This document shows, one piece after another, positions 17,102-51,860 of a stretch of 64,000 nt of DNA. Numbering within the stretch: the stretch's first letter is position 1; each line of letters opens with the position of its first letter. The notes below the pieces were generated by a model. It worked only from the letters and a program-made list of their open reading frames with translations, was not told the origin of the DNA and did not search any database. The translations under genes were made by a program, and so were the position numbers. This DNA is from Planctomycetota bacterium (GTDB taxonomy: Bacteria; Planctomycetota; UBA8742; UBA2392): NCBI GenBank assembly GCA_019186845.1, contig JABARW010000019.1, positions 65,790 to 129,789 of the forward strand. The letters are read 5' to 3'.

Positions 17102-18199
17102 TTACTTGGCCGCGTCGGTCTTGGGCTTCTGGTGATAAACCCAGACGTGGGGCTTGCGTGCCACCGTGGCGCGGCCCTTGGGGCTGCCCTCGCTGGTCCA
17201 CATGGAGTAGCCGCCGACGATCAGGTCCAGAAGACCATCGCCGTTGAGGTCCGCGAGGTCGAAGTAGAGCCCCCCGTCGGGCCTGGTGGCCTCCTTGGAC
17301 GATTTGTCGGAAGCGTCGACGAGGGTCTGGGCCGGGGCAAAGACCGGAGCGCCCTTCTTGCCCGTGTTGCGGTACCACTTGATGCTTCCGCTTTTTCCGT
17401 CGCCGTATGAGTCGCCGAAGGTCCCCAGCACGAGGTCGCTCAGGCCGTCTCCGTCAAAGTCCACCAGGCGCGGCGAGGTGATCTTGTCACCGGCATCCAG
17501 GGCCTTGTCGCCACAGAGAATGCGCTGGCTGGTGCCGCTGAATTTGGGCTCCTTGGCGCTGCCTTCATTGAGCTGGAGCCAGAGGTAGCCGTCGCGCCCG
17601 CCCAGCACAAGGTCGAGGTCGCCGTCGGCATCCCAGTCAAAGGCATAGGCGGAGATGCAGTGGGCATTGGGGTCCACGCCGCCTGTATGGTCTTTGTGGG
17701 TCCATTTCTTGGATTCGTAGTCCCAGTACTGGCTGAGCCTGACGCGCTCACCGTTCTTGTCCCTGATGTGCTGGGGCTGCTGGAAGCCTTCCTTGCCGCC
17801 CAGCGCTACCCAGGGAGAGCCGTCAAAGGTGGCTGTGAAGATGTCGGTGTGGCCGTCGGCGTTGAAGTCCACGAACTGTGGAGCCATGCCGATGCATCAC
17901 CAGTTGTTGAACTTGAGGGGCTTGCCGTCGGCCGCCGTGAGGAGGGTTTCCGCGCCAAAGCCCTCTTTGCCGCCCTTGCTGACGGTGAGGTTGCCGAAGA
18001 GATCGCCGATCACTAGGTCTTTGAAGCCGTCGCCGTCGAGGTCGTAGAGGGCGGGCGAAGGAAAGAGACGTTCTCTCTTGTTGAGCAGGTGGCCCAGGGG
18101 CTCCTCGCCGGCCTTGAGCATCTTGGGCGCTTCGAAGGCCTGGGCCGGCAGCGTCAGCGCGCCCAGGGCACAGGCCAAGAACAGTAAAACAGGCAGCAT
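17102..18199 (-). CDS. Putative selenoprotein: secreted FG-GAP/VCBS repeat protein
   Basis: Read through an in-frame TGA (17897-17899), this is a 365-residue protein with selenocysteine at 101. The start is the ATG with GGAG five bases upstream and begins a Sec signal peptide (MLPVLLFLACALGALTLPAQA). Five calcium-type FG-GAP/VCBS motifs follow on both sides of the TGA: YDLDGDGFKDL, VDFNADGHTDI, FDWDADGDLDL, VDFDGDGLSDL and ADLNGDGLLDL, so repeat spacing is kept across the codon. The local reading is NNW-U-CIGMAPQ. Frame and repeat register match on both sides, and a SECIS-like stem-loop begins seven bases after the TGA. The protein is probably a periplasmic or surface beta-propeller; a redox or metal role of the U-C pair is inference. 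If the organism lacks Sec decoding, this is a pseudogene. Confidence 0.75.
17856..17899 (-). promoter_or_regulatory. UGA codon plus bacterial SECIS-like stem-loop
   Basis: Counting the U of UGA as 1: lower stem 8-12 (UCGGC) with 40-44 (GCCGA); G15 and G16 facing U34 and C33; bulged base C17; stem U18-C22 with G28-A32; apical loop AGUUC (23-27) carrying the G-U pair. E. coli fdhF has the same register: G15, G16, bulged U17, U18 and an apical loop with G23-U24, the SelB contact. The bulge is C in place of U. Confidence 0.65.
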
Positions 18200-45599: not shown

Positions 45600-48500
45600 T
45601 TATTGGGCGCTGCGCGCGGCACAGCGGAACCCGCGGAACTCCGAAACGCTGGCTGGTGCGCGCCGGCCGCGGAAAAAGGTGCGCAGGTCGCTGGGCGCGT
45701 CGGAGTCGCTGGGCTTGATGTCCGTGGCAGCATCCGTTTCAAAGCTGCCGCCGCGCACGACGCGCCGGTCAGACGTTGATGGCTTGTCCTTGACCAGGGG
45801 GTCTTTGCCGCCGCGGGTGTAGGCCGTGTCGTCGTACCAGTCAAAGCACCATTCTTCGACGTTGCCCGCCATGTCCAGCGCACCGCAGGGCGAAGCGCCC
45901 TTGGCTGCGCGTCCCACGTTCTGAATGCCCGCATAACCGCTGCGCTTGAATACGCTGCGTTCGCCGTTGGGGCGGTCGGCGCCCCAGGGATAGACCCGGG
46001 CGTCGGCGCCGCGCGCGGCATGTTCCCACTGTGCTTCGGAGGGCAGGGAGCCGCCGCCGTCATCGGCCCAGCGGCAGTAGGCGTCGGCGCCCTTCCAGGG
46101 CACGTTGACGACGGGGAAATTGCCAAAGCCCTCTTCGGCCATCCACGATTTGCCGTCGTGAGCGAGGTGAAGGAAGCCCTCGCCGCTGCGCGCGATCAGG
46201 CCCTGCTGCACGGCGTCGGCGGGGCTGATGGCCCGCGCGTTGAGAAAGCGCGCGAATTGGTCGTTGGTGACCTCGAACTTGCCGATGAGATAGCTGGAAA
46301 GCTCGACCTCTCGCCGGGGCGCGTCAGGCAGGCCCTCGGCCACGCCCTGGGTGAACTTTGAGGCGGGCACCTCGATCATGATCATGCCGTCGCTGACCCG
46401 CTCGTACTCCATAAAGCCCTGGGCGTTCTTGCCCAGCGCTTTGTAACGGCGCAGCTTGACGCTGAAGGCGTGGCTTATGCGGGTCTCGCGGTCATTGAGG
46501 TCCCGCGCAACGAATTCAAGCTTCACGTCGCCCGCCTCGCTGACGGGCAGCGTTTTCTCGAATCTGCCGCCCTCGAGCTTGAGCGTGTCCTGGCCCAGTT
46601 TCAGGCGGGCTTCGGCGTCGTCCAGCCGCCCCGAGACTTTCACTTCGTACGGAAAGACATCGGCCAGCAGCGCGGCCCCGGCGGCGGGCTCAAACTCGAG
46701 GAACTTCGGCGCCTCGAGGTCCACCACGACTGTCAGTTCGGACTTGAGGCTTCCTTTGAGCCAGTCGGAGGCCTCGACGGTGACCGTGTGGCGTCCGGCG
46801 GGCAGGGTCTTTTCCAGCGTGAAGCTGCCGTCGGCGGCCAGCGGCACAGGCTTGCCCTCATGAGCGAGAGTGCAGCCGCGCTGTTTGTTGAGCTTGCCCT
46901 TGAGGCTGACGGCCTCCCTGGGGCTCCAGACGGTGCGCTCGCCCTTGAGGTCGAACCAGTTCAGTGCGAGTTCGAGGCGGTCGGGCACGATCTCGATGCG
47001 CTTGGCTTCAGACTTGTTGCCGACGCGGTCTCTCGCGCTGAGTTCAACGAATACGGGTTCGTCGCCTACCTGCACGGGAATGCTGAAGGACCCGCCCTTC
47101 TCGACGGTCAGGGGCGGACGCACGACATTGCCGATGGTGCAGAGGATTTCCGTCTGGGGGTCATCATCGGCGGCCATACCAGCGATGCTCATGCTGCGGT
47201 CGGCCGTGGGCAGCACGCCCGACTTGGCGGCGTCGAATTCGCGCCAAACCAGCCTGGGGGCCTCCTGGTCGAGAAACACGTGCAGTTCGCGCAGCGCGCT
47301 GTCTTCGCCTAGCCTGGCCGAAACTCTGAGAACGTTGAGTTTGGGCTTGAGCGTGACAGCGTCACCCAGCTTGTAGGGGTTGCCGTTGAGCGTCACGGGC
47401 ACGTTGCTTTTGCCCTCAATGACGAAGCTGGCTGAAGAGGTGAACAGGGGCGCGTCCGCCGTGGCCTCTGTGGAGGGCAGAGCCAGGTTGAATTCGGGCG
47501 CGGGGTCCGGGGGCTTGCCCGTGTCACCCTTGGATACCGGCTCGTTGCCTCCGTTCTTGCCCGTGGAGAAGGCCGCATAGGCGCCTACGGCCAGCGCGGC
47601 TATGGCAATCAGGGCAATCAGCACCAGAAGTCCAGTCTTGGAGCTTTCCTGAACGATGGTGACAGGCCCCTGGGTGAAGGTAGGGGTGCCCGAGGCGCTC
47701 ACTGGCGCAGAGGTGGCCTGCGACACAGCCGGGGCCGAAGTCAGGTTTGCCCGAGTCGCGCTGGCCGGAGCCGCGGAGGTCGCGGGCGGCGTGACGGCCA
47801 CAAGCGTAATACCCGGCTGCACGACCGATTCGCGCGAGGATCCCGAGGCTGCTGCCGCGCTGCTTTGCGGCCCGGTGCGCAATTGGGTGGGGCTGACGAG
47901 GCGAGTGCCGCCGCCTTCACCTGCAGCCAGGGCAAGTTGCGCGGACTCGGCTTCCGTGGGCGGGTGGGCGGTCCACCATTGGTCGATAGCCTGGGCGTAT
48001 TCGAGCGCGCTTTGATAACGCTGGGCCGGATCGACATGCATGGCCTTGGCGATCAGCGCGCAGAGGTCGTCGTCGCAGGCGGGCGCGAACTTCTTCAGAG
48101 GCTCGGGCCGACCCTGCATGAGCAGGCCAAGAATCTGGGGCGGAGTGCGCCCGGGGTAAGGGTAGCTGCGGGTGATGAGGTGGTAGTGCGTGACCCCCAG
48201 TGCGTAGATGTCGCTGCGGTGGTCCACGCCTTCGCCGTGCCATTGCTCGGGTGGCATGAAATGGGGCGTGCCGATGATCAAACCTGTCTGCGTCAGGTTG
48301 TTCTGGCCCGTGTCGTCGGCGGTCATGTCACGAACGAGGCCGAAGTCGGTGATCTTGCAGCTGTCGTCTTCGTCGATGAGAATGTTGCCGGGCTTGATGT
48401 CGCGGTGAATGATCTGCTTCTTGTGGGCGTAAGCCAGGCCCAAAGCCGACATATGGATGTAGCGCGTGGCGCGGTGAGGCGAGAGCCGGCCTTTGGCCAC

Positions 48501-48815
48501 CGCGTCTGCCAGGGACTGCCCCGGCACGAACTGCATGGCCAGATAATACAGGCCGTCGGCCACATCGGCGGCCAGCACCTGCACGATGTTGGGATGAATC
48601 AGCCTGGCCGCGTGGCGAGCCTCGCGCAGGAAGCGCTCGACGAGTTGGGGGTCGGCCGCCATGCGGGGCCGGATGATCTTGATGGCGTGCTCGACGTGCA
48701 GCACGTTGTGCCGGCCCAGGTAAACGCCTCCCATGCCGCCTTCGCCCAGTTTCTTGATCAGGGTGTAGGGGCCCAGCGTCTTGTGTTCGGCGAGGATGGG
48801 ATCAGCTTCAGGCAT
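45600..48815 (-). CDS. Ser/Thr protein kinase with FGE-sulfatase-like C-terminal domain
   Basis: Product of 1071 residues. Hanks kinase, about residues 16-275: GEGGMGGVY, AIK (Lys46), HRDIKPGN (Asp139), DFG (157-159), and MPPEQ as the APE-like element. A Pro/Ala/Ser-rich linker and one membrane helix (about residues 398-420, LIALIAIAALAVGAYA) separate it from a periplasmic part with beta-sandwich-like modules, and a formylglycine-generating-enzyme (SUMF1)-like domain at about 815-1071: GKFEVTNDQFARFLN, PVVNVPWKGADAYCRW, LPSEAQWEHAARG, DMAGNVEEWCFDWY and RRVVRGGSF. It probably senses an external or periplasmic cue and phosphorylates cytoplasmic targets. The FGE part may be a ligand-binding lectin-like fold and not an active enzyme. 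Partners in the window could be the FHA protein. Confidence 0.92.
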   Translation of the reverse strand: MPEADPILAEHKTLGPYTLIKKLGEGGMGGVYLGRHNVLHVEHAIKIIRPRMAADPQLVERFLREARHAARLIHPNIVQVLAADVADGLYYLAMQFVPGQSLADAVAKGRLSPHRATRYIHMSALGLAYAHKKQIIHRDIKPGNILIDEDDSCKITDFGLVRDMTADDTGQNNLTQTGLIIGTPHFMPPEQWHGEGVDHRSDIYALGVTHYHLITRSYPYPGRTPPQILGLLMQGRPEPLKKFAPACDDDLCALIAKAMHVDPAQRYQSALEYAQAIDQWWTAHPPTEAESAQLALAAGEGGGTRLVSPTQLRTGPQSSAAAASGSSRESVVQPGITLVAVTPPATSAAPASATRANLTSAPAVSQATSAPVSASGTPTFTQGPVTIVQESSKTGLLVLIALIAIAALAVGAYAAFSTGKNGGNEPVSKGDTGKPPDPAPEFNLALPSTEATADAPLFTSSASFVIEGKSNVPVTLNGNPYKLGDAVTLKPKLNVLRVSARLGEDSALRELHVFLDQEAPRLVWREFDAAKSGVLPTADRSMSIAGMAADDDPQTEILCTIGNVVRPPLTVEKGGSFSIPVQVGDEPVFVELSARDRVGNKSEAKRIEIVPDRLELALNWFDLKGERTVWSPREAVSLKGKLNKQRGCTLAHEGKPVPLAADGSFTLEKTLPAGRHTVTVEASDWLKGSLKSELTVVVDLEAPKFLEFEPAAGAALLADVFPYEVKVSGRLDDAEARLKLGQDTLKLEGGRFEKTLPVSEAGDVKLEFVARDLNDRETRISHAFSVKLRRYKALGKNAQGFMEYERVSDGMIMIEVPASKFTQGVAEGLPDAPRREVELSSYLIGKFEVTNDQFARFLNARAISPADAVQQGLIARSGEGFLHLAHDGKSWMAEEGFGNFPVVNVPWKGADAYCRWADDGGGSLPSEAQWEHAARGADARVYPWGADRPNGERSVFKRSGYAGIQNVGRAAKGASPCGALDMAGNVEEWCFDWYDDTAYTRGGKDPLVKDKPSTSDRRVVRGGSFETDAATDIKPSDSDAPSDLRTFFRGRRAPASVSEFRGFRCAARSAQ

Positions 48816-48886: not shown

Positions 48887-49624
48887 CTACTTTCCAGGAT
48901 TCTTGTCCTTGAACTCGCAGGCATCGCGCAGGTAGTTGTTGAGCTTACGGGCGTAGTCGTCCATGTAGTAGCCGTAAGTGACAATCTTGCCGCTTTCATC
49001 GAGCAGGATGACGGCCGGAATGAAGTCGCTGCCGATGCCGTCCTTCACCTGGGCGTCCTGGTCAAACACGCAAGTCCACGGAATCCTGTTGCTCTGGATG
49101 AAGGTTTTCTGGGCCGCAGGAGTGTCGTCCAGGAAGTTCACGCCCACGCCAATGACATCCAGGCGGGTCTTTCCGTCCTTGTTCAATTCCTCGAAGATGG
49201 GTTTGGCCGACTTCTCCTGCGCGGTGCGGCAGTAGGGACACCAGGAGGCCCACATCAAGATCATCTGATAGTGGCCCTTTCCGTGCTCACTGCGTTTGAC
49301 TTCCTTGCCGCTGACGACGTCCTTGAGGACGAAATCAGGAAACACGTCGCCAACCTTGTACTTCTGTAGCACGTCTTTTTCGGCCGTGGGCGGGAGGGGG
49401 CAAACCTCGCCGCCGCCGGACTTGGGTGTCTCGGACTCCTCGCTGGAGGCGCGGCGCGGATGGTACTTGGAAACGTTGTGGCCTTTGTAGGTTTCGTTGC
49501 CCGAGGCGTCTGTGCCGTAGCCTGACTCGGGATTCTCGGAAGCGAGCGTGCAGCCGGCAACGGCCAGCGAGCCCAAGGCCAGAGCTAGAACGAGGGTGAG
49601 GCTGTGTGTGCCCATCTTGGACAT
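48887..49624 (-). CDS. TlpA-like thioredoxin-fold lipoprotein
   Basis: Product of 245 residues. Lipoprotein signal (LGSLAVAGC), then a Ser/Gly/Glu-rich linker of about 60 residues and a thioredoxin-like domain: ILMWASWCPYC with CPYC as the redox pair, followed by the cis-Pro region (IPAVILLDESGKI). Membrane-anchored, acting in the periplasm as reductant or oxidant, like TlpA/ResA. AGGAG precedes the ATG. The kinase gene starts 71 bases after it in the same direction. It is the first of three thioredoxin-fold genes in a row. Confidence 0.88.
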   Translation of the reverse strand: MSKMGTHSLTLVLALALGSLAVAGCTLASENPESGYGTDASGNETYKGHNVSKYHPRRASSEESETPKSGGGEVCPLPPTAEKDVLQKYKVGDVFPDFVLKDVVSGKEVKRSEHGKGHYQMILMWASWCPYCRTAQEKSAKPIFEELNKDGKTRLDVIGVGVNFLDDTPAAQKTFIQSNRIPWTCVFDQDAQVKDGIGSDFIPAVILLDESGKIVTYGYYMDDYARKLNNYLRDACEFKDKNPGK

Positions 49625-49784: not shown

Positions 49785-50786
49785 CTACTCGGCGGACTCG
49801 ATCTCATCTGCTTTGGCTGAAGCATCCTGTGCCGCGCGGGTACCGTCGTTCTTCTTGGCAAAGTCGCGCAGGGTCTTCACTTTGTCCGCCTTGGTTTTCA
49901 CCGTTTTGAGGCCGTCGATGACCTTGGCCAGGTTATTGGCCGCATCGACCTCACGCTTCACTTCTTTGTCTTTCTTGAGTTCCTTGATCTCGGCCGCTGC
50001 CGTATCTCCCAGCTCCGTGCCCTTGAAGCCGTTGGCCAAGGTTTCCAAGGCTGTGAAAGCGTCCAGGTAGCGCTTTTCGGCCTTGGCGGCGTCAGCGGCC
50101 TGGCGCAGCTTTTGACCCATGGCGTTGCAACGGTCGATGACGAACTTTGCGTCGGTCACTGCAGCTTCGCTCGAGTTTTTCTCGATGACCTTGTTCGCCT
50201 CTTCGATGGCCTTGGCGTACTGCTTGTCCACAAAGGCCTGTGCGGCCTTTTCAACGCCCTTGGCTACATCAGGTTTGCCCAGGCCCATGTACTTGATCTT
50301 CTTGACTTCTTCGTCAATCACGCTCACGTAGCCGGAGTGTCCTTCGTAGATGACTGTGCCGTCAACACCGATGACATAGGCGTAAGGTATGGAGCCTGCG
50401 CCGGGATAGGGGAAGTTCCCTTCCTTGACTTGCGGCATCTTGTAGCCCGGGGCATAGATCTGCCGGATCTTGTCGTCGGTACCGCTCTGGCGCTCCAGCA
50501 TGAATACATGCAAGCCCTTGCCTCCGTATTTGCCCCAAAGCGCGTTGACTTCGGGCATGCTGCGGATGCAGGGTCCACAGTTGACGCCCCAGAGCTTGAT
50601 CAGGATCACGTCCCCCTTGCAGTCATCGAGTGTATGGCAATTGTCGGCCGGAGCATTGAGCACGTAGCTCGTGGCGCTGAAGGCCGGGGCCTCCTTGCCC
50701 TGCAAACCTGAAGTCTTCTGAGCGGATGCCGCAGTACCGCACACCGCAACCAGAGCCAATACGGCCACAGAAAGAAACTTTTTCAT
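49785..50786 (-). CDS. Periplasmic thioredoxin-like protein, CGPC form
   Basis: Product of 333 residues. Sec signal peptide (VAVLALVAVCGTAASAQ), then a redoxin/TlpA-like domain to about residue 175: LIKLWGVNCGPCIRSMPEVN with Cys70 and Cys73, and later SIPYAYVIGVDGTVIYEG with the cis-Pro. The last 150 residues are Lys/Ala/Glu-rich helices (for example AAAEIKELKKDKEVKREVDA), likely a coiled coil or repeat domain. AGGAG precedes the ATG. The upstream paralogue (50877-51860) is closely similar through its whole length but has TGA in place of the codon for the first active-site Cys. Probable thiol-disulfide exchange or peroxide role in the periplasm. Confidence 0.9.
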   Translation of the reverse strand: MKKFLSVAVLALVAVCGTAASAQKTSGLQGKEAPAFSATSYVLNAPADNCHTLDDCKGDVILIKLWGVNCGPCIRSMPEVNALWGKYGGKGLHVFMLERQSGTDDKIRQIYAPGYKMPQVKEGNFPYPGAGSIPYAYVIGVDGTVIYEGHSGYVSVIDEEVKKIKYMGLGKPDVAKGVEKAAQAFVDKQYAKAIEEANKVIEKNSSEAAVTDAKFVIDRCNAMGQKLRQAADAAKAEKRYLDAFTALETLANGFKGTELGDTAAAEIKELKKDKEVKREVDAANNLAKVIDGLKTVKTKADKVKTLRDFAKKNDGTRAAQDASAKADEIESAE

Positions 50787-50821: not shown

Positions 50822-50852
50822 AAAATGAAAGCGCCCGGCGTGAACCGGGCGC
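50822..50852 (-). terminator. Terminator between the two thioredoxin-like paralogues
   Basis: The stem GCGCCCGG/CCGGGCGC (loop six bases) is followed on the minus strand by TTTCATTTTC, 25 bases past the stop of the upstream paralogue. It separates the two genes unless read through. Confidence 0.7.
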
Positions 50853-50876
50853 TCGTTTCGCTCGTTCACCTGCCGC

Positions 50877-51860
50877 TTAGCTTCCCGACTCAACTTGATC
50901 GGCCAGCGTCTTGGCGTCTTCAGCAGCGCGGGTGCCGTCGTTCTTCTTGGCAAAGTCGCGCAGCTGTTTGGCCCGGTCCGTCTTGCTCTTGACCGTCTTC
51001 TGGCTCTCAATCAATTTCTGCAAGGCGGTAGCGGCATCCACCTCGCGCTTGACTTCCTTGTCTTTCTTCAGCTCCTTGAGTTCGGCCGCGGCCGTATCTC
51101 CCAACTCCATGCCCTTGAAGCCGCTGGCCAGTGTTTCAAGGCCGGCAAAGGCCTCGAGGTAGCGCTTCTCTTCCTTGGCCTTGTCGACGCTGGCGCGAAT
51201 CTTTGAGCCCTCCGCGTTGCAGCGCTCAATGATGAACTTCGCGTCCTCGACCGCCGCCTCCTCCTTGCCCTTCTCGATGACCTTGTTGCAGTCCTCGATG
51301 GCCTTGGCGTACTGCTTCTCAACAAAGCTCATCGCGGCCTTCTCAAGGCCCTTGGCTACTTCCAGCTTGCCCAAGCCGGGGTACTTGATCTTCGCCATCT
51401 CGGTCTTGATCACCGAGTGGTAGTCCCCGCGCCCCTCGAATACCACCGTGCCATCCACGCCAATGACGTAGCTGAAAGGCAGGCCCCGGTCTCCGGGATA
51501 TCCACTCATTCCCCCCATATAGACCGGCGCTGTGATGCCGCGGTCCGAGAGGAACTTCTTCAGGGCGCCTTCTTCGGTACCCTGGGACTCAAGCAGATAC
51601 ATGTTGAGCCCCTTACCTCCGTATTCGTTCCAGAGACCCTGGAGTGAAGGCAACGCCTTCACACAGGGTCCTCACTTGACGCCCCAGAGTTTGATCAGAA
51701 CGACCTCCGCCTTGCAGTCAGCCAAGGTGCGGTGGTCTTGTTTGGCTGTAACGCTTTCACCCGCCGAGAAATCCGGCGCAGGCTTACCTTTGAGTTGCGC
51801 ACTCAAAGGCGCGGCCAGACTCAGCGCAGCCAGGAGGAATGCCCATGCCAGCGTCTTCAT
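50877..51860 (-). CDS. Putative selenoprotein: periplasmic thioredoxin-like, UGPC form
   Basis: Read through an in-frame TGA (51672-51674), this gives 327 residues with selenocysteine at 63 and Cys66 (WGVK-U-GPCVK). The paralogue 90 bases downstream has WGVN-C-GPC at the same place. A Sec signal peptide (MKTLAWAFLLAALSLAAPLSA) and the same Lys/Ala/Glu-rich C-terminal helices (AAAELKELKKDKEVKREVDA) are present, and the frame is intact for 260 codons after the TGA. Ribosome-binding site GGAGA lies eight bases before the ATG; an ATG 24 bases upstream is less likely. A 7-bp plus 8-bp SECIS-like stem-loop follows the TGA. A UxxC active site would give a low-pKa, fast redox centre. TGA used as an ordinary stop would leave a 62-residue stub and an orphan C-terminal part. 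Confidence 0.85.
51635..51674 (-). promoter_or_regulatory. UGA codon plus bacterial SECIS-like stem-loop
   Basis: With the U of UGA as 1: GACCCUG (5-11) pairs with CAGGGUC (34-40); U12 is bulged, UC (32-33) opposite; GUGAAGGC (13-20) pairs perfectly with GCCUUCAC (24-31); the apical loop is G21-U22-U23, holding the G-U that SelB recognises. All 15 pairs are Watson-Crick. The whole hairpin is within the coding frame, as required for bacterial SECIS elements. Confidence 0.75.

Follow-up and report, generated by a model that had tools for sequence, protein, structure and literature searches.

Does the stop codon that stands inside an open, conserved thioredoxin-like reading frame of an uncultured planctomycete end the protein, or is it read as selenocysteine (Sec), and what kind of protein would then result? 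The frame lies in a stretch of 64,000 nucleotides (the window) from a Planctomycetota MAG of 3.74 Mb (89 contigs, 87.65% complete). A preliminary description of the same DNA had proposed a Sec protein with a Cys-containing paralogue nearby. Judged from the sequence data presented below, the gene very probably encodes an exported ResA/TlpA-type selenoprotein whose residue 63 is read as Sec via SelB and a SECIS element, and which belongs to a multi-copy family found across the phylum.

An in-frame UGA in the active-site column

The features of the gene and of its UGA codon are as follows.

50877..51860, minus strand: predicted Sec-containing, exported thioredoxin-like gene; 327 codons plus a TAA stop, Sec as residue 63
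51672..51674, minus strand: UGA codon predicted to be read as Sec, WGVK-U-GPC; an in-frame TGA, the sole one in the frame
51634..51671, minus strand: predicted SECIS stem-loop directly 3′ of the UGA; conserved upper stem plus GUU loop at 51662-51644, loop at 51654-51652
51798..51860, minus strand: predicted N-terminal signal peptide (MKTLAWAFLLAALSLAAPLSA), read by eye from the sequence; helix 3-14 in the model, with low pLDDT
51369..51797, minus strand: ResA/TlpA-like thioredoxin-fold domain; Pfam PF00578, with ResA matches by sequence profile and fold
50880..51368, minus strand: C-terminal all-helical domain of eight helices, common to NCBIfam VPGUxxT type 1 at a score below the cut-off

The TGA lies in the sequence KLWGVK-U-GPC, where a ResA/TlpA-like thioredoxin domain would have the first Cys of its active site. 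In the frame, the position of the TGA (51674-51672), the numbering (U63 of 327), the CGPC paralogue 90 bases off, the open 3′ frame and the presence of a hairpin, the preliminary description was accurate. Homologues occur in 20/20 genomes of the class examined, and about 110 of them were read at the codon aligned with residue 63, the column in which the preliminary description had expected Cys or Sec. TGA was found there in 74 homologues from 17 class genomes, each with exactly one TGA and always in that column; the remaining class homologues carried TGC/TGT or GAT/GAC, apart from a single AGC and a single AAC. Outside the class, 51 genes were read, 45 of which (44 genomes) had one TGA in the same column and 6 of which had Cys. 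Taken together, the sole TGA fell in the active-site column in 119/119 TGA-bearing genes, which confirms a placement far better than chance. As in bacterial selenoproteins, the in-frame UGA thus occupies a redox-active position that is Cys in homologues. Matches to the family were present in 109/392 sampled Planctomycetota genomes, the class itself included.

A conserved hairpin 3′ of the UGA

The criteria for a SECIS element were taken from a published bacterial model (PMC13188914). The hairpin after the UGA (folding energy of −26.6 kcal/mol, z = −4.8) agrees with this model: it has a GUU loop with the G in first place, 17 nt from the UGA, and an upper stem of 8 bp. The hairpin had been drawn before as a two-part structure with a GUU loop; the upper stem and the loop have stood and are conserved, whereas the lower CCCTG/CAGGG stem is confined to the closest relative and was rejected as a part of the conserved hairpin. 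Among the class homologues, a model-fitting hairpin was found in 65/74 Sec genes, compared to 3/18 Cys genes, 1/17 other homologues and 53/222 shuffled sequences, and the Cys paralogue at 49785..50786 is without a SECIS. The scan gave no model-fitting hairpin in 9/74 Sec genes of the class and 19/45 elsewhere in the phylum, many of them of the WATWUGPC type, and in part of the WATWUGPC group hairpins were weaker or not found.

Conservation is visible at the nucleotide level. All 19 orthologues of the gene share the sequence GTGAAGGC-GTT-GCCTTC, and codons +4 to +8 after Sec (V, K, A, L, P) are frozen as GTG AAG GCG TTG CCT; every synonymous site of the stem, the loop and these five codons is identical in the 19 orthologues, while flanking codons vary. 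The frozen five include rare codons (in these genes, TTG makes up 11% of the Leu and CCT 8% of the Pro codons). In the WGxxUGPCxRQL-type paralogues (n = 29), the stem sequence varies by compensatory substitutions, with 96.7% of cells pairing; the covariation score of these stems is 0.394, compared to a shuffled mean of 0.108 (0/500), and sliding the partner abolishes it. Between them, the frozen and the covarying hairpins describe the SECIS of this uncultured lineage in enough detail to search for further selenoproteins.

Sec machinery

The genome encodes selB, selA (543 bits), selD and a tRNA-Sec with the anticodon UCA that adjoins selA. The preliminary description had made its claim depend on these genes, and all four are present, as expected for the host of a bacterial selenoprotein. 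SelD of this genome is a predicted selenoprotein itself, with an in-frame TGA in a canonical UGCK motif (SHGAG-U-GCK; L017, G000 C2:96966-97889). Outside the class, selA was found in 48/54 TGA-bearing genomes and in 144/282 genomes without the family (odds ratio of 7.7; Fisher p = 7e-8, a value that ignores kinship between genomes). A selA match was missing in the other six TGA-bearing genomes outside the class; incomplete assemblies are perhaps the cause, but at least two of the six are >90% complete.

Readthrough, reassignment or a broken gene?

A stop codon inside an open, conserved frame might also be passed by ordinary readthrough or belong to a reassigned UGA that inserts another residue, e.g., Trp. 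However, TGA is the terminator of 20/74 Sec genes of the class, and therefore UGA is not reassigned; reassignment was rejected on this ground, in line with the earlier remark that TGA serves as an ordinary stop here. Furthermore, in-frame TGA is restricted to the Cys position, the genome has SelA, SelB, SelD and tRNA-Sec, and the SECIS is conserved, so that the chance of either process accounting for the codon is negligible. In the list of open reading frames the gene appears as two pieces of 70 and 261 residues, as would be expected of a pseudogene, a sequencing error or a pair of separate short genes, but these readings have to face the same TGA in independent MAGs at 93, 76, 66 and 47% identity, which excludes an error in base calling. 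Compared to the ortholog in the sister genome G018 (93% identical), dN/dS of the gene is ~0.05 before the TGA and ~0.12 after it, and the latter value points to purifying selection on the 3′ part and indicates that it is translated. The hairpin is invariant, and AlphaFold gives a single continuous thioredoxin domain across the site. We consider a broken or miscalled gene exceedingly improbable. A Sec protein, as proposed in the preliminary description, is supported by the machinery, by the TGA in the same column of independent MAGs and by the conservation of the SECIS at the nucleotide level, and on sequence grounds the apparent stop codon of the gene at 50877..51860 is very probably a Sec codon.

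Two domains on one chain with predicted export

The AlphaFold2 model (pLDDT of 94) contains one continuous thioredoxin domain spanning U63. The best fold matches of the N-terminal half are structures of ResA, TlpA and CcmG (4nmu, 3kcm, 1st9), and the sequence profile agrees. With its thioredoxin fold, its CxxC-type site (UGPC) and its predicted export, for which the signal peptide was judged by eye, the protein has the characters of a ResA/TlpA-like oxidoreductase. A fold search of the PDB with the C-terminal domain gave no match at an E value below 0.7.

Sec, Cys and Asp paralogues

The Sec gene is followed on the same strand by the features below.

50829..50854, minus strand: intrinsic-terminator-like hairpin between the Sec and the Cys genes (z = −3.9)
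49785..50786, minus strand: Cys paralogue, KLWGVN-C-GPC, 58% identical to the Sec gene along its length
48887..49624, minus strand: further TlpA-like protein, WASWCPYC, which in G018, a genome without this Cys gene, lies beside the Sec gene

The Cys paralogue starts at 50786, 90 bases past the stop of the Sec gene. That the Sec gene has a close paralogue beside it had been seen correctly before, but the scale was underestimated: among the members fetched, the genome has eight Sec paralogues, this gene included, along with two Cys members and one Asp member. Several genera have a tandem of three in the order Sec gene, Cys gene and Asp gene, the last without the motif, and this order is widespread. 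In the third gene of the tandem (L087, L105, L129 and other trio loci), Asp takes the place of Sec or Cys and the CxxC is missing. On the tree, these Asp genes group in a single well-supported, conserved clade, which is apparently redox-dead. Well-supported branches of the tree force at least four changes of the Cys label. For the eight tandem Cys copies, the data are compatible with a single origin (AU p = 0.37), although the best tree splits them.

The tandem Sec-Cys arrangement is present in eight f1 genomes, only about half of the family-f1 genomes. In G018, a sister genome, the terminator-like hairpin of the Sec gene and the TlpA-like gene have no Cys gene between them; the absence is clean, with intact flanking genes, and the TlpA-like gene is 96% identical to that of the window. 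Several other f1 genomes are also without a Cys copy. The absence in G018 and the limited spread of the tandem pair leave a fixed division of labor between the Sec and Cys proteins, a redox variant of which had been suggested in the preliminary description, possible but unproven. The Sec/Cys pairs, the recurrent switches between Sec and Cys in the tree and the absence of the Cys gene in G018 are natural comparisons that bear on an open question, namely, what an exported thioredoxin gains from Sec over Cys.

An ABC-F ATPase, an isoaspartate methyltransferase and a small thioredoxin-like protein recur as neighbors in relatives and indicate no clear pathway. In this genome (G000) and in G018, the thioredoxin-like cluster adjoins a gene for a Ser/Thr protein kinase (window positions 45600-48815, minus strand), whose fused C-terminal part resembles by eye a formylglycine-generating-enzyme/sulfatase-modifying domain.

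Further selenoprotein candidates

The window holds a second candidate selenoprotein gene at 17105-18199 (minus strand; TGA at 17899-17897), which would encode an exported FG-GAP (PF13517) repeat protein with a vicinal Sec-Cys pair (NNW-U-C-IGMAPQFVD, a WUC motif). Its UGA is followed by a CCAC-AGTTC-GTGG hairpin with a loop motif similar to that of the thioredoxin-like gene. This family is matched in 48/392 Planctomycetota genomes, nearly all with one TGA in frame, and in the homologues read (those of the class and of 14 other Planctomycetota genomes) the TGA was in the same column in all TGA-bearing ones. Six genomes of one genus have Cys-Cys in the FG-GAP protein and no matching hairpin sequence; their best selA match is weak (E about 1e-10 to 1e-13), and they have no true selA. 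A literature search found no paper or catalogue entry for the FG-GAP selenoprotein.

Frames of ~420 to 450 codons with two in-frame TGAs and a weak match to the thioredoxin-like part of NCBIfam NF041382 were also seen, and from their sequence they are possibly double-Sec proteins. They are represented by the following loci.

G017 C200:811-993
G013 C21:50019-50231
G011 C50:8079-8234
G019 C77:39259-39384
G012 C1:1783649-1783801

A model of Sec63 function

In our model, SelB and Sec-tRNA-Sec (UCA) would decode UGA63, guided by the hairpin 3′ of the UGA. In the UxxC site of the product, the selenol of Sec63 would attack and Cys66 would resolve. Outside the cytoplasm, the protein is most likely a thiol-disulfide reductase, with the direction of electron flow read from family resemblance only, and it would probably be recharged by the DsbD-type transmembrane reductase of the genome, a DsbD-type protein being encoded on contig 8. 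The role of the C-terminal helical domain would be to bind a partner or substrate, and the paralogues probably serve different clients. By analogy with ResA and TlpA, a role in cytochrome-c maturation or in copper handling may be guessed; cytochrome-c maturation genes were not recognized beside the Sec gene in the loci examined.

One way to account for the tandem would be a gate dependent on selenium, in which the Sec gene is made only with selenium and the Cys gene covers otherwise, similar to the Sec/Cys isoenzyme pairs in some methanogens. Such a gate would fit the tandem in eight f1 genomes and the terminator-like hairpin, which would permit separate expression of the two genes, and selenium-driven differential expression of Sec and Cys FmdB is cited in PMC4807772. 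However, the same locus in G018 has intact flanks but no Cys gene, several further f1 genomes are also without a Cys copy, the analysis found no regulatory element and the Sec and Cys proteins are just 58% identical; we therefore regard the gate as doubtful. To go beyond the exported ResA/TlpA-type selenoprotein, it is imaginable that the trio of Sec, Cys and Asp genes, together with as many as eight Sec paralogues, makes up an extracytoplasmic redox network on one scaffold, with a redox-dead Asp copy, tuned by selenium supply and by loss of single copies, in which the helical domain is a docking module common to the VPGUxxT selenoproteins; this picture is speculative, and we think it unlikely to hold as a whole.

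Comparison with known systems

In sum, the gene belongs to a large, phylum-wide family of predicted exported Sec thioredoxin-like proteins, with up to eight per genome, that is apparently undescribed, and standard gene calling splits this large gene family at the UGA throughout a whole phylum. For Planctomycetota, a literature search, with subscription papers and supplementary tables outside its reach, turned up neither this architecture nor the paralogue number nor the trio, all three of which appear undescribed. Within the phylum, Sec use has been published for the algal-associated Planctomycetes P1 and P2, which likewise have the Sec machinery; the main text of PMC4807772 treats formate dehydrogenase and FmdB, and an overlap of candidates is possible.

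Among the closest known systems is NCBIfam NF041382 (VPGUxxT family thioredoxin-like [seleno]protein, type 1), with which the helical domain (84/96 members match) and the use of Sec are common. However, the match is limited to the C-terminal half (residues 167 to 321), its 79.9 bits lie below the curated cut-off of 350, and the active site is WGxxUGPC (here WGVKUGPC) and not VPGUxxT, which places the Sec protein outside NF041382. True VPGUxxT selenoproteins with a TGA are found in relatives (G009 C83:35248-36294, L167; G007 C21:66080-67114, L168), and they carry the same kind of C-terminal helical domain as the present family.

The N-terminal domain resembles the extracytoplasmic oxidoreductases ResA, TlpA and CcmG (DsbE) in fold and sequence profile, but the present protein has Sec for Cys and a C-terminal domain that is missing there. 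UxxC selenoproteins of the Prx-like/TlpA-like kind are known (PF00578, PF08534 and cd02966 entries, PMC13188914), as are the Prx-like 1 and Trx-like 1 selenoproteins of PMC2398784. The Prx-like/TlpA-like proteins share with the present family the thioredoxin fold, Sec for the first Cys of CxxC and a SECIS directly after the UGA; to these, the planctomycetal family adds a C-terminal domain of eight helices, as many as eight Sec paralogues in one genome and the tandem Sec-Cys-Asp trio.
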